Source: Adhaeribacter aquaticus DSM 16391 | GTDB taxonomy: Bacteria > Bacteroidota > Bacteroidia > Cytophagales > Hymenobacteraceae | Length of the DNA stretch: 64,000 nucleotides | Reading direction: 5' to 3' | NCBI RefSeq assembly: GCF_000473365.1 | Contig: NZ_KI421517.1 | Span: 3,366,634-3,430,633, forward strand | Shown: positions 16,918 through 29,719 of the stretch, piece by piece | How positions within the stretch are numbered: position 1 is the first letter of the stretch | Layout of the letters: each line of letters starts with the position of its first letter | Notes under the pieces: model-generated | Databases searched by the model: none | What the model was told of the DNA's origin: nothing | The model's input: only the letters and a program-made list of their open reading frames with translations | Position numbers and translations under genes: made by a program

Positions 16918-19900
16918 ATGAGAAAAATTCTACTTTCTTTTCTCGCTATTTTGTTTGTTACGCAGGCAATAGCGCAAAATTTAAAAGTTACCGGGAAAAT
17001 TTCAGAGGCTGGAGGCGATGGGCTTCCAGGAGTAACGGTGCTTGTAAAAGGTACTAATCTTGGAACAGCTTCTGATGTAGATGGTAATTATACTATCCAG
17101 TGTGCTCCTAATAGTACTTTGGTGTTTTCTTTTATTGGTTATTTAACCAAAGAGGTTTCCGTCGGTAATCAAACTTCCTTAAATGTAGCGTTAGGTTTGG
17201 ATGCTAAACAACTAGGCGAAGTGGTGGTTACAGCATTTGGTATAGAAAGAGAGAAAAAAGCCTTAGGATACACTATTCAGGAAGTAAGTGGTGAAAAGTT
17301 AGCACAGGTAAAATCTGCTAACGTGGCAAATGCGCTTTCTGGCCGGGTAGCCGGGGTGCAGGTTAATAGTAACGGCGGGCCTGGTAGCAGTTCCAATATC
17401 GTAATCCGGGGAATGGGGTCGGTAAGCCGCAATAATCAGCCATTGGTTGTAATAGATGGTGTTCCAATTCAGCAATCAAATTCTAACCGGTATGGGGGAG
17501 GTATTTCAGAGGTAAATCCCGAAAATATTGCCTCTATGTCGGTGTTAAAAGGTCCTAATGCTGCGGCGCTTTATGGTTCCAGGGCAGCGAATGGAGTTAT
17601 TTTAATAACCACTAAAAACGGTGCCGGTACTAAAGGTCTGGGTTTAGAGATAAGTTCCAGCTCTACTTTTGAAAGACCTTTGGTAAAACCAAACTTCCAG
17701 AATATTTATGGAGGTGGTAATGGTAACCGTACCTGGTATACAAACGGAAGAAGCGGTGCAATCACTGATCCGCTTGAAGTTCAGCAATATCGGGCAGCGT
17801 ATGGTGCTAATGCGCCGTTGTCCGGAACGGCTGGTACAGATGAAAGCTGGGGCGCCCCAATGGATGGCCGGCTGGTGCGGCAATGGTATACTGGAACCGG
17901 TGTAGCTCCTTTAACTCCTCATCCTAACAACTGGGAAGAATTCTGGGAAACCGGCAGCACCTACGCCAATAGTGTAGCCCTTACTGGTGGTAATGATAAA
18001 GGTAGCTTCCGGTTATCGCTTGGTCAGTTAGACCAGAAAGGAATCATGTTTAATAATGATTTTAAACGAAACAACATTGAAGTAAATACTACCTATAATA
18101 TAACGCCTAAATTAAAAGCCGTAGTAAGTGGCGAATATGTTAAATCAGGATCTGATAACCGTTCCTACCAATCAGGACAGGAGTTTATCTGGGCACACCG
18201 CAGCATTTCATGGGATCAGTTAAAAAACTGGCGTGATTACGCCGGGGTGCATATTCAACGTCCTGGTGATAATCTTCCTCCAAACTGGCAACATACCTTC
18301 TTTACTAATCCTTTTTACGAGCAGGAATTCTTAACAAATGCCAATGATAAGGATCGGCTGCGTGGTAACATGTCTTTATCTTATGCTTTTACTGATAAAT
18401 TAGGCTTAATGGTTAGAAGTGGTACCGATGTTTGGAGTGATACCCGGATAAATGTAAGCCGCTTTGCCCGGGTTTCGAACGGAAACTTCCGGGCCGGCCA
18501 ATACAGCGAAGAAGTATTACGCAACCAGGAAACCAACCACGACATGATGCTTACTTATAAGCAGGATTTTGGTCAGGACTTTTCTTTTAGCGGACAGGCT
18601 GGTGGTGTATATCGCCAAAATTATTACAAACGCAATTATGCTCAGGTAGATCAGTTGGTAATTGACAGGCTTTATACCTTAAATAACAATGCCAGCCCGA
18701 ACATAAACGCCAGCGAAATCCAGAAATTTAATGTGCAAAGTTTATTTGCTGCGGCACAATTTGGTTTCCGTAACTCCTTATTCTTAGATGTTACCGGCCG
18801 TAACGATTGGTCCAGTACGCTGCCATTAACTAATAATTCTTTCTTCTATCCATCAGTTTCCCTGAGTGGTGTTGTAACGGACTTATTAGGAATCAGGAAC
18901 AACGTGCTGTCTTTCGCAAAAGTCAGGGCAAGCTGGGCACAAGTCGGGAATGATGCCGATCCCTATCAGCTCTACCAATTGTATGACGCCAAATCACCTT
19001 GGAATGGCGCCATCCCAAGCTTTGGTGAAAGTACTGATATAAATAATGCTACTCTAAAACCAGAAATTACTACGGGCCAGGAAGTTGGAGCAGATATCCG
19101 GTTCCTGGGTGGTAGAATTGGCATCGATGCAACATATTATACAAAAAGCACCAAAGACCAGATTCTGGGGGTAGAAATATCTAAAGCAACTGGTTACAAC
19201 CGCCGGTTCCTGAATGCAGGTGAGGTAACTAACAAAGGAGTAGAATTGATGGTAACCGGTACCCCAATTAAGTTAGAAAATGGCTTACAATGGGATGTGG
19301 CTCTAAACTTTGCCCGTAACCGCAGCATGGTGGTTGCCTTAGCAGAAGGTTTAACTACCTATACCTTACACACTACTCGTGGTACATCTTTAGAAGCTCG
19401 GGTTGGCCAGCCTTACGGTACGTTTTATGGTACTGCATTTCAGCGGGCTCCGGACGGACAAGTTATCTATAAAGACGGTTTGCCTCAGGTAGCTACCGGT
19501 CAGGCAGTTTTAGGTAATGTGCAGCCTGATTGGATAGGTGGTTTCTCAAACTCCTTAAGTTTTAAAGGTGTTACTTTAAGCGCTCTGATTGATGTTCGCA
19601 AAGGCGGTGATATTTTTGATGAAGGTACCGGAACAGCTCGTTGGACTGGTCAATACGCAGAAACTGCGATTGGCAGGGAAGAGGGTGTGATTGGTAAAGG
19701 CGTAAAGAATGTTGGAACTGCGGAGGCTCCTGTTTATGTGCCTAACGACGTGATAGCAGATGGAAAGCTTTTCTATAGCTACAACAATCCGCGTACCTAC
19801 CACGAATCCGCCATATTTGATGCTTCTTATGTGAAATTAAGAGAGGTGTCCTTAGGGTATGAGTTGCCATCCTTCTTAAGCAATAAGATTAAAGCACAAT

Positions 19901-20064
19901 CTGCCAGAATAACTTTAGTAGGTCGCAATTTAGCCATCCTGTTCAAAAATACACCTCACATTGATCCGGAAGTAGATGCTAACGGTGGTAATGCACAAGG
20001 TTTTACTTACGGTGTTTTACCTAGCAGCAGAAGTATAGGTGCCAGCTTAAATATTCGTTTCTAA
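16918..20064 (+). CDS. SusC/RagA family TonB-linked outer-membrane transporter
   Basis: A 1048-aa receptor with a Sec signal (MRKILLSFLAILFVTQAIAQ). A carboxypeptidase-regulatory-like domain (about 22-100) is followed by the plug (about 110-230, with SGRVAGVQVNSNGGPGSSSN and VLKGPNAAALYGSRAANGVI) and the 22-strand barrel, ending in aromatic NIRF. There is no STN signalling domain. SusC proteins import substrates in TonB-dependent fashion with a SusD lid. It is the first of five closely spaced plus-strand genes ending with two Tat-exported amino-acid enzymes. That context suggests peptides, amino acids or amines rather than glycans as substrate, and no glycoside hydrolase is nearby. Confidence 0.93.
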   Translation: MRKILLSFLAILFVTQAIAQNLKVTGKISEAGGDGLPGVTVLVKGTNLGTASDVDGNYTIQCAPNSTLVFSFIGYLTKEVSVGNQTSLNVALGLDAKQLGEVVVTAFGIEREKKALGYTIQEVSGEKLAQVKSANVANALSGRVAGVQVNSNGGPGSSSNIVIRGMGSVSRNNQPLVVIDGVPIQQSNSNRYGGGISEVNPENIASMSVLKGPNAAALYGSRAANGVILITTKNGAGTKGLGLEISSSSTFERPLVKPNFQNIYGGGNGNRTWYTNGRSGAITDPLEVQQYRAAYGANAPLSGTAGTDESWGAPMDGRLVRQWYTGTGVAPLTPHPNNWEEFWETGSTYANSVALTGGNDKGSFRLSLGQLDQKGIMFNNDFKRNNIEVNTTYNITPKLKAVVSGEYVKSGSDNRSYQSGQEFIWAHRSISWDQLKNWRDYAGVHIQRPGDNLPPNWQHTFFTNPFYEQEFLTNANDKDRLRGNMSLSYAFTDKLGLMVRSGTDVWSDTRINVSRFARVSNGNFRAGQYSEEVLRNQETNHDMMLTYKQDFGQDFSFSGQAGGVYRQNYYKRNYAQVDQLVIDRLYTLNNNASPNINASEIQKFNVQSLFAAAQFGFRNSLFLDVTGRNDWSSTLPLTNNSFFYPSVSLSGVVTDLLGIRNNVLSFAKVRASWAQVGNDADPYQLYQLYDAKSPWNGAIPSFGESTDINNATLKPEITTGQEVGADIRFLGGRIGIDATYYTKSTKDQILGVEISKATGYNRRFLNAGEVTNKGVELMVTGTPIKLENGLQWDVALNFARNRSMVVALAEGLTTYTLHTTRGTSLEARVGQPYGTFYGTAFQRAPDGQVIYKDGLPQVATGQAVLGNVQPDWIGGFSNSLSFKGVTLSALIDVRKGGDIFDEGTGTARWTGQYAETAIGREEGVIGKGVKNVGTAEAPVYVPNDVIADGKLFYSYNNPRTYHESAIFDASYVKLREVSLGYELPSFLSNKIKAQSARITLVGRNLAILFKNTPHIDPEVDANGGNAQGFTYGVLPSSRSIGASLNIRF

Positions 20065-20105: not shown

Positions 20106-21578
20106 ATGAAGATATATAAAAACATCAAGAAAGCAGTTGTAATTTCTGCCGGGATCTTTGTGGTAAGTTCTTGTACAAAAGATTTCGAGCAAATGAATAT
20201 TAGTCCTAACAAACCTTCAGCCGTTAGTTCGTCGGTTCTGTTGCCAGCCGGTATAGAATCCAGCGTGGACCGGTATTGGGGGCACCGTGCCCGCTTTGAA
20301 CGGATAAACCTGGACGGTGGTATGTTATGGGTGCAATACCTGGCGCGTAATATTTACTCAGATGAGGGTGATAACTACAACATGAGCCCGGCTTATTATA
20401 CCAATAACTGGAAAGGTTTCTATAATGATGCGCTCCTTAACTTCCAGCGGATTATCATTCAGGCGGGAGCTAATGGAGCTGAGCCTAATACTAATTACGA
20501 AGGTATTGGTTTAGTAATGCGTTCGTGGGTGCTTTCCATTCTTACAGATGTTTACGGAGCCATACCTTACAGTGAAGCCTTGCAGGGAACCGCCGGCACG
20601 CCCATTTATACTCCCAAGTATGATTCGCAGGAAGAAGTTTATGCCGGTTTAATCAATGATCTGAAAACGGCTAATGAGAAATTGGTAGTTGGTGGTCCGG
20701 CTGTCTCTGGTGATATCATGTTCAATGGTAATATTCTGCGCTGGAAAAAGTTTGCTAATTCGCTTCGCTTGAAATTGGCAAACCGACAGGCAGCCAAAAA
20801 GCCAAGTGAGTCTCGGGCGGTAATGGCCGAAATAATGGGCGATCCGGCTAAGTATCCGATTTTTACGGGTAATACGGATTATGCCGTGCTTACTAATGCT
20901 AATGGTTTGCCTAGTAATAATGAATGGAACCAGGTAATGGTGCAGGAAAGCCGCACCGACTGGAACCTGAGTAAAACCTTGGTTGATAAGCTAGAGTCGC
21001 TGAATGATCCCCGTTTAACCGTATTTGGTCAGCCGGTAGCAGGTAAATATGTGGGTGTGCCCAATGGCTTGCCAGATGCTATTGCAACTACTTATTTGGC
21101 TGGTAGTGCTAAAATTGGCACTTACTTCTTGCAAACAAGCACGCCAAGTGTGGTGATGAGTTATGCTGAACTGCTGTTTACTTTGGCCGAAGCTGCCCTG
21201 GATGGCGATGTTTCCGGGAGTGCTCAGGAGTTCTACGAAAAAGCTATTGCTGCTTCCTTCACGCAATATGGACTAACTATGCCAGCTACTTACCTGGCTA
21301 CTGCTGGCCCTGCAACTAAAGAAAATATTCTTACTCAAAAATGGATTGCTTTATTTGGCCAGGGTATTGAAGCCTGGACCGAATACAGGCGAACCGGATA
21401 TCCTGTGTTACCACCGGCTGACCCCCGTGCTATATTCATGAATGATGGTGTTATGCCTACCCGCCTGCAGTATCCCTCAACAGAATACTCTTTGAACAGA
21501 CAAAAATTAGATGAGGGTATTAAGTTGAATGGCGGTACCGATAACCTGAAAACTAAAATGTGGTGGGTAGAAAAATAA
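20106..21578 (+). CDS. SusD/RagB-like outer-membrane nutrient-binding lipoprotein
   Basis: A 490-aa lipoprotein with a lipobox ending SAGIFVVSSC (Cys near 23). The helical repeat architecture and motifs such as ALQGTAGTPIYTPKYDSQEE and LTQKWIALFGQGIEAWTEYRRT near the C-terminus match the SusD-like group 2 family (PF12771 type). It should cap the SusC barrel at the cell surface and capture substrate. It lies 41 bp after SusC in the same operon. Confidence 0.9.
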   Translation: MKIYKNIKKAVVISAGIFVVSSCTKDFEQMNISPNKPSAVSSSVLLPAGIESSVDRYWGHRARFERINLDGGMLWVQYLARNIYSDEGDNYNMSPAYYTNNWKGFYNDALLNFQRIIIQAGANGAEPNTNYEGIGLVMRSWVLSILTDVYGAIPYSEALQGTAGTPIYTPKYDSQEEVYAGLINDLKTANEKLVVGGPAVSGDIMFNGNILRWKKFANSLRLKLANRQAAKKPSESRAVMAEIMGDPAKYPIFTGNTDYAVLTNANGLPSNNEWNQVMVQESRTDWNLSKTLVDKLESLNDPRLTVFGQPVAGKYVGVPNGLPDAIATTYLAGSAKIGTYFLQTSTPSVVMSYAELLFTLAEAALDGDVSGSAQEFYEKAIAASFTQYGLTMPATYLATAGPATKENILTQKWIALFGQGIEAWTEYRRTGYPVLPPADPRAIFMNDGVMPTRLQYPSTEYSLNRQKLDEGIKLNGGTDNLKTKMWWVEK

Positions 21579-21609: not shown

Positions 21610-22056
21610 ATGAAAAATATAGCATCCTATAAAACATTTTTAGTTGCCGCCTTGGCAGTTTTAAGTCTCTCCTTCATGAGTTGTGAGAAAGAAGAAGAAA
21701 TGGTAGTTGACCGGGTGGTTTCTCCGGTGCTGGTTGTTACCAACGGATCAACTTTCTTGCCAGGTGAAGCAGTTAATGTATCGGCAACTTTTTATGAATT
21801 AGATAAAAGCGGCATCTTAAACCATGCTGTCGGCATTGATTCAATCCCGGTTTCTAACCTGGCTGTTACGGTTAGGTTAAATAATAATGTTATTGCCAGC
21901 ATTACTACAGACCAAAAGGGAAAAGCAATTTTAAGTAAAACCTGGTCAGAGTTAGGGGTTGCTACTCCAAAAGCGGGTAACGCCGTTAGCCTGGAGTGGA
22001 GCGGATCTGTTAAAGGGCAAGGTTTTGCTAAATTAATGCGGGTTTCAGTTAAGTAA
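21610..22056 (+). CDS. small surface lipoprotein of the SusCD operon, unknown role
   Basis: A 148-aa lipoprotein: signal LVAALAVLSLSFMSC, then a Glu-rich stretch right after the Cys (EKEEE) resembling a Bacteroidota surface-export signal. The mature part is strand-rich, with VVDRVVSPVLVVTNG and AVTVRLNNNVIASITTD, suggesting an Ig-like sandwich. No family is recognised with confidence. It lies 31 bp after SusD and 25 bp before the flavoprotein gene, so it belongs to the operon and may be an accessory substrate-binding subunit. Confidence 0.75.
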   Translation: MKNIASYKTFLVAALAVLSLSFMSCEKEEEMVVDRVVSPVLVVTNGSTFLPGEAVNVSATFYELDKSGILNHAVGIDSIPVSNLAVTVRLNNNVIASITTDQKGKAILSKTWSELGVATPKAGNAVSLEWSGSVKGQGFAKLMRVSVK

Positions 22057-22081: not shown

Positions 22082-23212
22082 ATGGATCGTCGTGACTTCT
22101 TATATAAATCCGGTGCATTGGGGCTGGCGCTAGCCATGGGTGCCAGTTCCTGCACGTCGGGTAACAGTATTTACCGGAACATGGAATCATCTGGCACTGC
22201 CCGTAATTTGCCCAGGGTGAAGGTGTCGCTGGATAGGGTGATTAAAGAAACCGTTGGCCTCCGGCCTTACCGGCTTTCAGGGCCTCGTCTGGAGGTGCAA
22301 AAGCTGGGGTCAAAAACCATTGTTCATAATTATGGTCATGGCGGAAGTGGATTTTCTCTTTCCTGGGGGACCGGGAATATAGCTGCCGCAAATGCGGCGG
22401 CTACCGGAGAAAAACAGATTGCTATTATGGGTTGTGGCATTATCGGACTTACCTCGGCCCGGTTGCTGCAAGAAATGGGAAAAGAGGTAACCATTTATGC
22501 AAAAGAATTATGGCCTAAAATTACCTCCAGTATGGCAACCGGTACGTGGTCGCCATCTCATTTGCTCTGCGAAGAAGATCGCATTACACCTCAATTTAAA
22601 AGTACCTGGGAACAAGCTTGCCGTTATTCATTTCAGGCGTATCAGAATTTATTAGGATTAGGCGATTTGGTTACCTGGATTGATAATTATAGTTTATTAT
22701 CCAGTGCATCTGTAAAAGGAGAGGCTCCTGTATTGTCTGTTCCAGGTCAATTGCCGGCCAGAAGGGTTTTATCCCGGCGCGAGCATCCTTTTAAAGCGGA
22801 TGCAGTTACCGTGCAACCTACTATGATGTTCAATATCCCTTCTTATTTGCAAAAGCTCACTAATGACTTTTTTAGTTATGGCGGTAAAATTAAGATCAGG
22901 GAATTTAAAACGTTAGAAGATGTGGATGCATTACCAGAACGTTGTGTGGTTAATTGTACGGGTCTGGGGTCAAAGGCTTTATTTGGTGACGAAGAGTTAA
23001 TGCCTATTTCGGGTCAGCTTTCTTTTTTAATTCCGCAGCCAGAAATAAATTATCGTCTCACTACACCGCATGGGTATATCATTCCGCGAAAAGACGGTAT
23101 TGTATTAGGAGGCAATGCAATTCGGGGCAGTTGGAATACTACCCCCGATCCTAAACAAACGGAAGTAGTGGTAGCGGCTATAAATGAAGCTATGCAGCAA
23201 ATGCGGGGCTAA
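22082..23212 (+). CDS. Tat-exported D-amino-acid-oxidase-type flavoprotein, apparently circularly permuted
   Basis: A 376-aa FAD oxidoreductase of the DAO superfamily. It opens with a twin-arginine signal (MDRRDFLYKS) and a possible lipobox ending ASSC (C24). The segments typical of the C-terminus of D-amino-acid oxidases come first: VGLRPYR at 58-64 (canonical GFRPxR, the substrate-carboxylate Arg) and VHNYGHGGSGFSLSWG at 81-96. The Rossmann motif GCGIIG follows only at 117-122. The protein ends just after the substrate-domain strand GYIIPRKDGIVLGGN (331-345) and a WNTTPD turn, where the canonical enzyme would continue into the segments seen here at the start. It should oxidise an amino acid to an imine plus peroxide outside the cytoplasm; the substrate and its chirality are not proven. 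Confidence 0.85.
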   Translation: MDRRDFLYKSGALGLALAMGASSCTSGNSIYRNMESSGTARNLPRVKVSLDRVIKETVGLRPYRLSGPRLEVQKLGSKTIVHNYGHGGSGFSLSWGTGNIAAANAAATGEKQIAIMGCGIIGLTSARLLQEMGKEVTIYAKELWPKITSSMATGTWSPSHLLCEEDRITPQFKSTWEQACRYSFQAYQNLLGLGDLVTWIDNYSLLSSASVKGEAPVLSVPGQLPARRVLSRREHPFKADAVTVQPTMMFNIPSYLQKLTNDFFSYGGKIKIREFKTLEDVDALPERCVVNCTGLGSKALFGDEELMPISGQLSFLIPQPEINYRLTTPHGYIIPRKDGIVLGGNAIRGSWNTTPDPKQTEVVVAAINEAMQQMRG

Positions 23213-23282: not shown

Positions 23283-24617
23283 ATGGCTTTAAATTTTACT
23301 TCCAACAGAAGAGGCTTTGTAAAAAAATTAAGTGGTATAGCCGGGTTGGTTACCTTGCCAACTGGTCTCGCAGCTTTGGGTAAAGAGCAACAGTTGTTTG
23401 CACCTAAAGTAGCACCTGCAGAAGACGTAACCAGTCGGGAAGATTATTGGGGTTTTATTCAACAGGCTTATTCCTCGTCGCCTAATGTGATTAACTTAAA
23501 TAATGGGGGTGTAAGTCCGCAACCAATTGTGGTGCAAAATGCCCTGGATCAGTACAACCGATTAAGTAATGAAGCGCCTTCCTATTATATGTGGCGTACC
23601 TTAGACGAGGGGCGGGAGTCGGTGCGGATAAAACTTGCTGATTTAGCTGGTTGCTCCCCGGAAGAAATTGCTATAAACCGTAATGCCAGTGAAGCGCTGG
23701 AAACGATAATTTTTGGTTTGAATCTCCAGAAGGGAGATGAAGTGGTGTTAACTAAACAAGACTATCCTAATGTGATTAATGCCTGGAAACAGCGGGAGAA
23801 GCGGGAGGGTATTGTTCTTAAATTTATTAACCTTGATTTGCCTATTGAGGATAATCAGCTAATCGTACGAAAATATCAGGAAGCTTTTACCGCTCAAACC
23901 AAGGTGATTATGATTACACACCTGATTAATTGGTCGGGGCAGATTATGCCTGCTGCTTTAATAAGCCGGGCAGCTAAAAAGTTTAATACCGCTATTCAGG
24001 TAGTAATAGATGGCGCGCATTCTTTTGCTCATATAGCCTATAAGATACCTGACCTGGAAGGTGATTATTATGGTACCAGTTTGCATAAATGGTTAAGTTC
24101 GCCTTTTGGTACCGGAATGCTTTATGTAAAGCAATCTCGTATTAAAGAACTCTGGACGCTTTTGGCGGCTGAAGATCCCAATAGCAGCGATATACGCAAG
24201 TTTGAACGTTTGGGTACCCGTTCGTTTCCTACAGAAATGGCCATTGGTCAGGCTATAAATTTTCATAATGCCATTGGTGATGAGCGAAAGCAAAAAAGGC
24301 TTCATTATCTTAAAAACTATTGGGTTGAAAAATGCTTGGATATCCCGGGGTTTACTACCCAAACTTCGTTAAACCCCGAATTTTCCGGTGCCTTGGCTAC
24401 CTTCGCTATTAAAGGAATGTCACCTGGCCAGGTAGCTGCTGAATTATTTAAAAAAGCCAGAATTCATACATCTGCTACTGTGTGGGAAAATATTAGTGGT
24501 GTTCGGGTTACACCCCATGTTTACACTCCTTTAAAAGATTTAGATCGATTGGTAAATACCATTCATCTTATTGCTAAAGAAAATGTAGCGGCCACCTCCC
24601 GTAGTAGTTTGAATTAG
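23283..24617 (+). CDS. Tat-exported class V PLP enzyme, CefD/isopenicillin-N-epimerase-like
   Basis: A 444-aa fold-type I PLP enzyme with an N-terminal twin-arginine signal (SNRRGFVKKLSGIAGL). The PLP-binding Lys is K269 in GTSLHKWLSSPFG and the ring-binding Asp is in VIDGAHSF (D243). The substrate-binding region LNNGGVSPQP (72-81) and the N-terminal layout resemble isopenicillin-N epimerase and related cysteine-desulfurase-fold proteins. It could be an epimerase, an aminotransferase or a lyase; sequence alone does not decide. It lies 70 bp after the flavoprotein gene and is the last gene of the SusC operon. Export through Tat would let it carry bound PLP out. Confidence 0.82.
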   Translation: MALNFTSNRRGFVKKLSGIAGLVTLPTGLAALGKEQQLFAPKVAPAEDVTSREDYWGFIQQAYSSSPNVINLNNGGVSPQPIVVQNALDQYNRLSNEAPSYYMWRTLDEGRESVRIKLADLAGCSPEEIAINRNASEALETIIFGLNLQKGDEVVLTKQDYPNVINAWKQREKREGIVLKFINLDLPIEDNQLIVRKYQEAFTAQTKVIMITHLINWSGQIMPAALISRAAKKFNTAIQVVIDGAHSFAHIAYKIPDLEGDYYGTSLHKWLSSPFGTGMLYVKQSRIKELWTLLAAEDPNSSDIRKFERLGTRSFPTEMAIGQAINFHNAIGDERKQKRLHYLKNYWVEKCLDIPGFTTQTSLNPEFSGALATFAIKGMSPGQVAAELFKKARIHTSATVWENISGVRVTPHVYTPLKDLDRLVNTIHLIAKENVAATSRSSLN

Positions 24618-24772: not shown

Positions 24773-25240
24773 TTATTTTGTTATTGCTATCATGGATATT
24801 TCGATGTTGGCATTACCAGGTAAATTGGCCACCTGAACCGTTTCTCGGGCTGGCGGCTCCGAAACAAAGTATTTGCCATACGTTTCATTTACTTTGGCAA
24901 ATTGGGAGATGTCCTTCACAAATATTGTGGTTTTAACTACGTCTTTAAAATCCAGACCAGCAGCTTTTAATATAGTTTTTAGGTTTTCCATTACCTGCGT
25001 AGTTTCGGTTTCATAACTTTCATTTAGCAGAACTTTTGTTTCCGGGTTAATGCCTAATTGTCCTGAAATAAAAAGCAGGCCATTGGCTATTACGCCCTGG
25101 CTATAAGGGCCGATAGGTTGCGGTGCCTGATCTGACCGAATAATCTTTTTGTTTCGGGAAGTTGGTTTTGCTGGATTTTGAGCGAAAATGGCCGTTGAGT
25201 AAAAACAAATAGCCAACATAGATAAATAAGAATAGCGCAT
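24773..25240 (-). CDS. exported RidA-family enamine/imine deaminase
   Basis: A 155-aa RidA (YjgF/YER057c) protein with a Sec signal peptide (MRYSYLSMLAICFYSTAIFA), so it acts outside the cytoplasm. The domain (about 30-155) has the family landmarks GPYSQGVIANGLLFISGQLG, VVKTTIFVKD and the conserved Arg in PPARETVQV that contacts the substrate carboxylate. RidA hydrolyses reactive imines and enamines to keto acids and ammonia. It faces a cluster that encodes two imine-producing flavin oxidases, which makes a joint role plausible. It is on the opposite strand, so it is not in their operon. Confidence 0.88.
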   Translation of the reverse strand: MRYSYLSMLAICFYSTAIFAQNPAKPTSRNKKIIRSDQAPQPIGPYSQGVIANGLLFISGQLGINPETKVLLNESYETETTQVMENLKTILKAAGLDFKDVVKTTIFVKDISQFAKVNETYGKYFVSEPPARETVQVANLPGNANIEISMIAITK

Positions 25241-27456: not shown

Positions 27457-28644
27457 ATGGCATCTTCAATGAACAGACGTAACTGGATAAAATCCAGTGC
27501 GCTATTAGCCGGAGGACTTACTTTATTCTCTGGAGCATCCAATTCTCTCTTGGCTTTGCCTTCCCGTTCTACCCGAAAAAAAATTGCCGAAGCAAGTTAT
27601 AACCTGGCAACTGATGAAAGTGTGGTATTAGCGGCTCCTGCACCGCTAAAAGCTAGATTAAATGCTAATGAAAATCCATTCGGGCCTTCGGCAAAAGCTA
27701 AAAAAGCCGTTATGGAGGCTTTAGATAATAGTTATCAATATCCAAGTGTTTATACACGAGAACTGGTAAACAAAATTGCTGAGCACGAAGGGGTAAAGCC
27801 TGAAAATATTTTAATGGGAGCCGGATCTTCGCCCTTGTTACTGGCCGCTGCCATGTACTACAGCGAGAAAAATGGGTCTAATATTGTTTCCGGCGATCCA
27901 ACTTATGCCAGTTTACCCAGAAGTGCCACAGATTTTAGTACCGTCTGGACCAAAGTGCCGCTTACTGCCGATCATAAGCTAGACCTGGACGCTATGGAAA
28001 AAAAGGTGGATAGCAGCACTTCGTTGATGTACATCTGTAACCCTAATAATCCAACCGGAACAGTTGTAGATACAGCCAAACTAAAGGCGTTTTGTGAGCG
28101 GGTTTCTAAAAAAGTACCTGTTTTTGTAGACGAGGCCTATATCGATTATTTGCCCGATCCGAAGGCTGCTTCTGTAATGGATTGTATTAATAAAGGCCAG
28201 AATGTTATTGTAGCCCGTACCTTCTCTAAACTTTATGGCTTTGCCGGATTGCGGGTGGGTTACTTAGTGGCGCAACCAGAATTAGTAAAAGCTTTAAGTA
28301 ATTACACTGCTGGCGGGTTTAGTATTTCTGCTACCTCTATAATGGCTGCTTTGGCCGCCTATCAGGATAAAGAATTTTTACAGGATGCTTTAAAAAAGAC
28401 CTTGGCTTCTAAAAAGTACTTATATGATGTCCTGAAAAAAGAAGGCTATGAGTATATCCCTTCATCTACCAACTTTGTAATGTTCCCGCTAAAAATGGAT
28501 GGTGAAAAGTTTGTGGCAGAATTAATGAAAAGAGGCGTTGGGGTGCGACAATGGAAGTTCTCTGGTAAAGACTGGTGCCGCATCAGTATAGGCCGAATGG
28601 ACGAGATGGAAGCCTTTGCCGATGCTTTCCGGCAAGTGTCCTAA
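27457..28644 (+). CDS. Tat-exported HisC-like class I/II aminotransferase
   Basis: A 395-aa fold-type I PLP enzyme. The first 35 residues form a twin-arginine signal (MNRRNWIKSSALLAGG). The catalytic core resembles histidinol-phosphate aminotransferase: LNANENPFGPS at 68-78, CNPNNPTG at 194-201, VDEAYIDY at 224-231, PLP Lys K258 in TFSKLYGFAGLRVGY. HisC enzymes are cytoplasmic, so a Tat signal implies a different, extracytoplasmic role, probably on an aromatic or related amino acid. It lies 53 bp after the amine oxidase gene. Without other his genes nearby, histidine synthesis is unlikely. Confidence 0.88.
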   Translation: MASSMNRRNWIKSSALLAGGLTLFSGASNSLLALPSRSTRKKIAEASYNLATDESVVLAAPAPLKARLNANENPFGPSAKAKKAVMEALDNSYQYPSVYTRELVNKIAEHEGVKPENILMGAGSSPLLLAAAMYYSEKNGSNIVSGDPTYASLPRSATDFSTVWTKVPLTADHKLDLDAMEKKVDSSTSLMYICNPNNPTGTVVDTAKLKAFCERVSKKVPVFVDEAYIDYLPDPKAASVMDCINKGQNVIVARTFSKLYGFAGLRVGYLVAQPELVKALSNYTAGGFSISATSIMAALAAYQDKEFLQDALKKTLASKKYLYDVLKKEGYEYIPSSTNFVMFPLKMDGEKFVAELMKRGVGVRQWKFSGKDWCRISIGRMDEMEAFADAFRQVS

Positions 28645-28655
28645 AAAATAACCTG

Positions 28656-28685
28656 CCTCAGGCCGGTTTATGAAGCGGCCTGAGG
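28656..28685 (+). terminator. hairpin between the aminotransferase and Hint genes
   Basis: A perfect 10-bp GC-rich stem (cctcaggccg / cggcctgagg) has a 10-nt loop and begins 11 bases after the aminotransferase stop. Only three T follow, so it may be a weak terminator or an mRNA-stabilising hairpin. An ATG in the loop (28670) is in frame with the Hint gene but is unlikely to be used. Confidence 0.45.
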
Positions 28686-28723
28686 TTTACAAATTGATTT
28701 ATTTACTTAAAAATCTACACCTT

Positions 28724-29719
28724 ATGCGCAAAAGTATATTATCGCTAATGTTTGTTGGAAGTCTTTGTATTTCAGAGGCTAAACCAGTTGATGACTCCCG
28801 GGCTTTAACTTTATCGGAATATCAAAAAGCAAAAAGCTTTTCTATAAAAGATCTTGATAATGAAACTTATGTAAAATTCGAAAATGCATATATTTTAGAT
28901 AGGTATGAAAGCCGGAAACCTTATTTTATTACTGGCGACGATGGATTGAAAAAACGCATAGATCTTTATCGGTTGTTAGCCAAAGATGGCATGCAAGAAT
29001 TAGGTACGATGATTTTCTATACCAACGAAAAAGGAAAACAATACAGGGCATTATTGCCAGGCTTTAAAACGGAAGGCAAAATCTGGGAACAGTATTTTGA
29101 AGACATACATGCCATTGATAAAGAAGAAAAAAACTTTGTTTTGAAACTTTCCTATGTGCTTTCCAAAGAGCTTTCTTTTCAGGAGTACAAAGCTTTAAAC
29201 CAGGGTAAAGACATGAAAGTGGAATCGGCCACCTACGGCAACGATATCTGTTTTCCCGGTGACCAGTTGGTGGCCATGGCAAATGGGCAAAAAAAGTTTT
29301 TGCATCAGGTAAAAGCCGGAGACCAGGTCTTAACCATTGATCCAGAAACTAAAAAAACAACAAAAGTGGAAGTAAAAGGTCTGATAGCCCACGAAGCCAA
29401 AAATTATGCTATTACGCGGCTAGTGGTGGTTTCTGCTACTGAAAAAGCAGGTCAAGAAGGTAAAGAAATAAAATTAACAAGTAAAATATTGGAAGCAACT
29501 CCTAACCACCCCATGCTTACCCAACAAGGTAATCGCAAAATAGGTGAAATTGCAGCTGGGGAGGAGGTGCTTTGCCTGGATAATAAGACTGGTAACTACA
29601 CCGTGCATACGGTATTGCAAAAAATGGAATATGCCGGAGGTGTTCAGAAAGTATATAACATTGATGCCAGTGGCGGTACTACCTTCATGATGAATGATGT
29701 GATGGTAATGCAGAAATAA
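28724..29719 (+). CDS. secreted protein with a C-terminal Hint (hedgehog/intein-like) domain
   Basis: A 331-aa product. The ATG at 28724 was chosen because it opens a signal peptide (MRKSILSLMFVGSLCISEA); an in-frame ATG 54 bases upstream sits inside a hairpin. Residues 25-170 form an unrecognised charged domain. From C176 a Hint fold follows: CFPGDQLVAM at the splice-site position, KAGDQVLTIDPET, then the block-B pattern TPNHPML (T259, H262). The domain ends at the C-terminus with MNDVMVMQK, so there is no C-extein and no terminal His-Asn pair. It may self-cleave before C176 or be a relic fold. No family function is known. Confidence 0.72.
   Translation: MRKSILSLMFVGSLCISEAKPVDDSRALTLSEYQKAKSFSIKDLDNETYVKFENAYILDRYESRKPYFITGDDGLKKRIDLYRLLAKDGMQELGTMIFYTNEKGKQYRALLPGFKTEGKIWEQYFEDIHAIDKEEKNFVLKLSYVLSKELSFQEYKALNQGKDMKVESATYGNDICFPGDQLVAMANGQKKFLHQVKAGDQVLTIDPETKKTTKVEVKGLIAHEAKNYAITRLVVVSATEKAGQEGKEIKLTSKILEATPNHPMLTQQGNRKIGEIAAGEEVLCLDNKTGNYTVHTVLQKMEYAGGVQKVYNIDASGGTTFMMNDVMVMQK

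Follow-up and report, generated by a model that had tools for sequence, protein, structure and literature searches.

D-amino-acid oxidase (DAAO) is a model flavoenzyme, used in biosensing and for the production of H2O2 in cells. In canonical enzymes of its family (Pfam DAO), a Rossmann domain that binds flavin adenine dinucleotide (FAD) starts the chain together with the substrate domain, and a block consisting of the GLRPxR strand, the HNYGHGG motif and a terminal helix closes it. LucY, an FAD-binding protein whose paper mentions "circular permutation", is reportedly MurB-like and of another fold. A literature search that left subscription journals mostly outside its range returned no permuted DAO among the titles and opening lines of abstracts that it covered (PMC2213659 and PMC2739507 included). 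Here we describe a gene of Adhaeribacter aquaticus DSM 16391, on a 64,000-nucleotide stretch of contig NZ_KI421517.1 (positions 3,366,634 to 3,430,633, forward strand; the window), whose product carries these two blocks in swapped order. We read it as a naturally circularly permuted member of the DAO fold, on the basis of swapped homology, completeness, conserved breakpoints and one confident predicted domain, and put the probability of this reading, its export, FAD chemistry and origin parts included, at about 0.8. The gene and the parts of its product are as follows (Tat, twin-arginine translocation).

22082..23212, + strand: gene of the permuted DAO-type flavoprotein, 376 aa; open reading frame (ORF) read directly, matching Pfam DAO in two swapped stretches; family of 139 distinct proteins
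22082..22153, + strand: residues 1-24, Tat signal MDRRDFLYKSGALGLALAMGASSC, ending at the lipobox-like Cys24 (TIGR01409; Cys24 invariant in a 10-sequence alignment)
22154..22225, + strand: residues 25-48, tether from signal to domain, with low model confidence at its start
22226..22399, + strand: residues 49-106, the block that closes canonical DAOs (GLRPxR strand, HNYGHGG, terminal helix), here N-terminal
22262..22264, + strand: Arg61, equivalent of the substrate-carboxylate arginine
22325..22345, + strand: residues 82-88, HNYGHGG, read directly and conserved in permuted and canonical groups
22400..22414, + strand: residues 107-111, joint of the old C-terminus to the old N-terminus, from the helix and strand of the model and the family spacing
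22415..23197, + strand: residues 112-372, FAD-binding Rossmann and substrate domain, the start of canonical DAOs
22430..22447, + strand: residues 117-122, GCGIIG (GxGxxG), read directly, its three Gly invariant
23075..23077, + strand: Tyr332, equivalent of the active-site Tyr, present here and replaced in most of the relatives collected

Direct reading of the ORF places VGLRPYR at residues 58-64 and VHNYGHGGSG at residues 81-90, both ahead of GxGxxG, which confirms the motif positions and order given in the first-pass annotation of this DNA; GYIIPRKDGIVLGGN occupies residues 331-345 of a chain that ends at residue 376. The open frame begins 4 codons before the first ATG, and a second GxGxxG hidden upstream, which that annotation had named as a way in which its reading could fail, was looked for and not found there. 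The window protein scored 100.8 bits with the PF01266 model (hmmscan), whose cut-off is 27.9. The match has two stretches, and the stronger aligns residues 113-373 with model positions 2-299. In a six-frame search of the window's own genome (5.17 Mb), model positions 298-352 matched the front of the gene (E = 2.2e-5) and positions 2-312 the part after it (E = 1.4e-21), a match that runs beyond the stop codon, the true model end being 299. Model positions 298-352 are thus found upstream of 2-299, and because the match is swapped and not collinear, the protein was filed as a permuted branch and not as a canonical member.

Searches of the protein against the Protein Data Bank (PDB) with phmmer gave the same arrangement. 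Residues 109-364 aligned with 11-264 of human D-aspartate oxidase (DASPO; 6rkf) and residues 54-102 with its positions 280-331, the latter stretch alone reaching E = 8.1e-6; for 7ct4, residues 110-359 fell on 23-293 and residues 53-102 on 320-369, again with the short stretch significant alone (E = 4.1e-8). The assignment of residues 49-106 is supported by these two matches and by that to DAO model positions 298-352. A profile of 93 permuted proteins matched 17 distinct DAAO/DASPO sequences of the PDB (E = 4.9e-44 with 6rkf, 8.8e-36 with human DAAO, 2du8), 16 of them as two stretches and the last, 1c0i, as a single partial one. Not one of the 58 listed PDB sequences aligned with the entire profile as a single stretch, and a solved structure with the permuted order was thus not seen among them. 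Chance occurrence of the motifs is ruled out by the profile and phmmer E-values.

The permutation is not peculiar to the window gene but marks a widespread branch of the DAO family. Among 98 related genomes, 13 had a match at E<=0.001, and in 9 of these the match spans the whole protein: the window's own genome, six of the seven others of the genus, and two from other families of the order (60% and 53% identity). Within the genus, the protein of genome G002 (L010) is identical to the one of Adhaeribacter rhizoryzae (L023). The motif order seen in the window recurs, as a full-length arrangement, in 8 other genomes at 53-76% identity. The remaining four matches are partial, and one of them, in G095 (L018), corresponds to a diverged permuted protein. 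A species-level scan (one genome per species, with the block junction as query) found at least 551 relatives among at least 598 stretches; its best 80 loci were kept, and all counts "of 80" below refer to these. They comprise 71 from Bacteroidota, 5 from Acidobacteriota, 3 labelled Alphaproteobacteria and 1 from Verrucomicrobiota. One of the three, L045 (labelled Thalassovita), contains SusC and SusD genes as a pair and is possibly a Bacteroidota contig binned wrongly; at L045:2507-4978 two permuted genes stand in tandem near a SusC/SusD/lipoprotein set resembling that of the window.

Evenly drawn samples, each count including the centre genome, gave a junction match (E<=1e-12) in 16 of 199 genomes from the phylum of an Acidobacteriota centre, 2 of 145 from that of a Verrucomicrobiota centre, and 14 of 289 and 20 of 398 from the class and phylum, respectively, of a Caulobacter centre, the last two samples overlapping. 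Some match at E<=0.001 was present in 271 of 296 evenly drawn Bacteroidota; among the matches listed, both blocks without a stop occurred only in G000, G069 and the diverged G238, and the remaining ones inspected were canonical DAOs or partial flavoprotein matches. Fourteen plasmid records had a match, and the six that cover at least 80% of the query are all in permuted order, their hosts being Niveispirillum, Rhizobium, Kozakia, Mesorhizobium (frameshifted), Nonomuraea (Actinomycetota) and Bradyrhizobium. Four annotated plasmid records name the permuted gene only "FAD-dependent oxidoreductase". On the Mesorhizobium onobrychidis plasmid (L194:3965-5028) it is annotated as two overlapping coding sequences; the frame break lies inside the GxGxxG region, so the gene looks frameshifted and not naturally split. 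In a viral fold library four matches were found at E<=0.001, the first an ordinary phage FAD oxidoreductase, and nothing closer.

Sorting of distinct ORFs by motif pattern gave 135 permuted, 28 canonical and no mixed proteins. With rows added by hand (L144, L149, L151 and L160 as permuted; L197 and L200-L204 as canonical), the final set holds 139 distinct permuted proteins, from five phyla, and 34 canonical ones; L191, identical to L163, was counted once, and no count includes L114 (a truncated canonical ORF), L182 (one internal stop) or L194 (frameshift). None of the 163 pattern-classified ORFs, a set without loci missed by the patterns or repeating a protein already seen, carried motifs in both orders, as a tandem or end-duplicated intermediate would. 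A profile of the canonical proteins matched each of its own 34 sequences in one stretch and all 139 permuted proteins in two (132) or three (7) stretches; of the 132, 131 were swapped, none was collinear and one had overlapping model ranges. The permuted profile, taken unrotated, hit 33 of the 34 canonical proteins in two stretches, all swapped, and one in three, whereas after rotation it matched all 34, with a single stretch of coverage >=0.98 for 31 of them and two collinear stretches for the other 3.

The breakpoints are shared as well. From the His of HNYGHGG to GxGxxG there are 35 residues in 115 of the 139 permuted proteins (range 34-71). The corresponding sum in canonical enzymes (His to the end plus the residues before GxGxxG) is 32-39 in compact enzymes and has a minimum of 32, a median of 43.5 and a maximum of 114 over all 34, some of whose starts are probably set too early; the old ends are therefore fused with almost no linker. 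The new ends fall between the GG strand and the GLRPxR strand, with 32-62 residues after the GG column in permuted proteins and a GG-to-Arg interval of 43-66 in canonical ones. In the permuted proteins the old ends are joined and the core is complete. Two proteins of the Acidobacteriota sample, L156 and L155, have joints of 71 and 49 residues (motif to GxGxxG) instead of 35, showing that the joint tolerates insertions.

A structure model from a 10-row alignment was poor (predicted local distance difference test, pLDDT, 64) and was replaced by a model from 89 rows, which predicts one confident domain. In it the N-terminal block (residues 49-106) has a pLDDT of 97-99 by blocks of ten, while model residues 1-10 (residues 28-37 of the window protein) average 53 and model residues 11-20 average 85. 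Residues 87-106 form the old C-terminal helix and residues 112-116 the first Rossmann strand, which bears out the joint at residues 97-111 proposed from the sequence by the first-pass annotation. Sequential superposition with order-bound methods (Foldseek, VIA-align) covers residues 109-373 of the window protein; residues 49-106 would occupy the place of the canonical C-terminal strands, to judge from homology and the model. In the proposed rearrangement the cut in a canonical chain would lie ahead of the GLRPxR strand and after the helix that follows the YIIP/GG strand; the old C-terminal helix would lead straight into the first Rossmann strand, leaving the core otherwise complete.

The catalytic arginine and HNYGHGG lie in the moved block. 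HNYGHGG, which we take to be the signature of the D-amino-acid oxidase/D-aspartate oxidase family and which residues 82-88 of the window protein fit, is conserved in the alignment of both groups, and the three Gly of GxGxxG are invariant in 139/139 permuted and 34/34 canonical proteins. At the Arg61 column all 34 canonical proteins and 138 of the 139 permuted ones have Arg, the exception being a gap in a fragment. By the phmmer alignments, Arg61 presumably corresponds to R283 of the pig enzyme and R285 of the Rhodotorula enzyme, and Tyr332 to Y228 and Y223, respectively. Tyr332 aligns with the YIIP tyrosine, a Tyr in 32 of 34 canonical proteins; among the 139 permuted ones this column holds Tyr in 57, Asn in 38, Ser in 22, His in 8 and others in 14. 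With this active-site Tyr so variable, members may differ from one another in substrate or chemistry, and substrate diversification across the permuted family is probable.

The window protein is most likely an FAD oxidase of D-amino acids or similar carboxylates, as predicted from these residues, and should bind a carboxylate substrate as DAAO does. FAD would be bound, and the group oxidised would be the alpha-amino or alpha-imino one of such substrates; Arg61 and Tyr332, whose identities are observed, would hold the substrate carboxylate, and the imino acid would then be hydrolysed, possibly with the help of a neighbouring RidA in some hosts. We consider it quite possible, although not the expected outcome, that the permuted fold serves another function, as a respiratory-chain dehydrogenase or as an oxidase of another amine or imine carboxylate (peptides, opines, cell-wall fragments). 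The residue equivalent to Y228 is not Tyr in 82 of 139 permuted proteins; in Kozakia baliensis a cytochrome c gene lies 5 bases 3' of the permuted gene, which hints at a respiratory electron acceptor; and neighbours that handle peptides or glycans are found near the best loci (a met-zincin protein in 8/80, GH92 in 18/80). The window protein, however, keeps Arg61, Tyr332 and the FAD motifs, and it is DAAO and DASPO, not dehydrogenases, that match it best in structure and sequence.

The first-pass annotation had also proposed that a Tat signal was added to the new N-terminus, and this, like the permutation itself, is supported by the sequence, profile and family data, the predicted fold agreeing as far as its superposition reaches. 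The NCBIfam Tat model TIGR01409 scored 23 bits on the window protein (cut-off 16.7), and the protein is probably lipid-anchored through lipidation of Cys24: Tat would export it, and Cys24, to judge from the signal, would carry the anchor. Of the 139 permuted proteins, some of whose starts are uncertain, 130 have an RRx[FLVMI] motif ahead of the domain, and none of the 34 canonical ones has it within the first 40 residues; RR followed by a lipobox-like Cys, a loose pattern, is found in 109 of 135. L189, L192, L195 and L196 have no signal at their likely start, whereas L190, of the same clade, has RRDF. It is conceivable, if rather doubtful, that it was through the permutation that a cytosolic DAO became an exported enzyme tethered to the membrane. 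As a canonical DAO opens directly with the first Rossmann strand, moving the termini to a surface loop would have given a free N-terminus for signal and tether; several phyla would then oxidise D-amino acids derived from peptidoglycan or peptides at the cell surface, with the respiratory chain rather than O2 as the possible electron acceptor. The existence of permuted members without a signal weighs against such a step, since permutation evidently does not require export.

Because the breakpoints are shared, the permuted form probably arose once and early, as far as sequences can tell. A careful tree, built on 75 rows either rotated or canonical, requires two changes among the permuted rows, and one change suffices in 42% of 200 bootstrap trees; forcing a single permuted clade costs 0.31 log-likelihood units (approximately unbiased (AU) test, p = 0.48). 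A quick tree with 90 rows, including two outgroup rows on very long branches that left the root unplaced, also gave two changes and was compatible with one. Three rows, L018/L104/L173, form a very divergent permuted clade; their genomes measure about 1.2-2.5 Mb, and the branch that carries them has a length of 3.4 changes per column. That the permutation arose more than once, with this clade as an independent event, would account for the two changes of the 75-row tree, for that long branch and for the low bootstrap fraction, but we hold it to be unlikely: a single clade is not rejected by the AU test, the blocks of L018/L104/L173 have the same order and similar ends, and long branches meet in the tree.

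The gene is flanked in the window by the following genes.

16918..20064, + strand: SusC-type TonB-dependent receptor, upstream, which we take to be SusC from its sequence and its SusD partner; relatives in 10/80 best loci, several only distant
20106..21578, + strand: SusD-like lipoprotein (PF12771, E = 1.5e-99); relatives in 4/80
21610..22056, + strand: small lipoprotein-like protein, directly upstream, with no Pfam or NCBIfam match at E<=0.001; relatives in 4/80
23283..24617, + strand: aminotransferase class V with a Tat-like start, directly downstream (PF00266, E = 8.3e-35; best NCBIfam match PvdN, far under cut-off); relatives in 3/80
24773..25240, - strand: RidA-family enamine/imine deaminase with a signal-like N-terminus (TIGR00004 above cut-off), one of 3 PF01042 matches in the genome
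25811..27403, + strand: flavin-containing amine oxidoreductase with a Tat-like start (PF01593, E = 1.9e-52); relative in 1/80
27457..28644, + strand: aminotransferase class I/II with a Tat-like start (PF00155, E = 2e-56); relatives in 2/80

RidA hydrolyses imines, the product of such oxidases. A RidA-family gene lies directly downstream of the permuted gene in all five Larkinella loci among the best 80, and a relative of the window's RidA is nearby in three others. Such surroundings support a role in exported amine or amino-acid oxidation, though they are not universal: of 12 neighbour queries over the best 80 loci none was universal, and the commonest ones were lineage-specific. Beside the oxidase cluster, at 28670-29719 of the window, there is a 349-aa protein with a Hint-module match (PF01079, E = 1.3e-10). 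The GH92 relatives (for example L024:3488-5800) include 12 that are listed, all from Dyadobacter. On two rhizobial plasmids (L192:2488-6714 and L196:2363-6690) a signal-less permuted gene stands on the same strand between an FAD-binding oxidoreductase, of berberine-bridge type by Pfam in L192, and a thiamine-pyrophosphate enzyme, an arrangement that is possibly an operon; a thiamine-pyrophosphate-dependent enzyme is also found 3' of the permuted gene in L194. In Kozakia baliensis (L193:464-5544) beta-lactamase-family and alpha/beta hydrolases lie 5' of it.

Several points weigh against reading the window protein as a permuted, exported DAO-type oxidase. The profiles were built from the same collected sequences that the motif patterns had sorted; it is from homology and model confidence that residues 49-106 are placed on a DAO structure; the active-site Tyr varies across the permuted family, with only 57 of 139 members keeping it; and the RidA, SusCD and aminotransferase neighbours are present in a minority of the best 80 loci. 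A fusion of an unrelated N-terminal domain to a truncated DAO, only resembling a permutation, could be entertained given that the N-terminal block is short (58 residues), but it is very improbable, as this block by itself matches the canonical C-terminal block of 7ct4 and 6rkf and the rotated permuted profile is collinear with canonical enzymes. A sequencing, assembly or frameshift artefact hiding a canonical gene has a negligible chance of being correct, as nothing in the window supports it, the one frameshifted relative, on the Mesorhizobium plasmid, has its blocks permuted too, separate neighbour genes flank the window gene on both sides, and the 8 further full-length homologues and the family in independent genomes, with the same block order throughout its 139 proteins, refute it.

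A large natural family of this kind provides a test of which chain connections are needed for folding, FAD binding and turnover, and its free N-terminus offers a scaffold for tethered or fused oxidases. It also points to a putative, so far unrecognised exported activity that would oxidise D-amino acids or imino acids.

Compared with the described systems, the permuted protein stands closest to the D-amino-acid oxidases (human and pig, 2du8 and 1kif; Rasamsonia, 7ct4; Rhodotorula, 1c0k) and D-aspartate oxidases (human, 6rkf; Cryptococcus, 9vpf). The former have the canonical order, whereas the window protein is swapped, bears a Tat signal and a probable lipid anchor, and is 23-25% identical to them over the aligned part; the same differences set it apart from the latter. 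Glycine oxidase ThiO and related enzymes (1ryi, 4ysh, 3if9), also of canonical order, are less similar than DAAO and DASPO. The bacterial DAOs of canonical order (L105, L119 and L126 from Bacteroidota; L197-L204 from plasmids) share the motifs and have a similar core, with a mean identity of 25% and a maximum of 37% to the rotated permuted proteins. The permuted enzymes probably share DAO chemistry, and the group belongs to the same superfamily, with another chain topology and, in most members, export.
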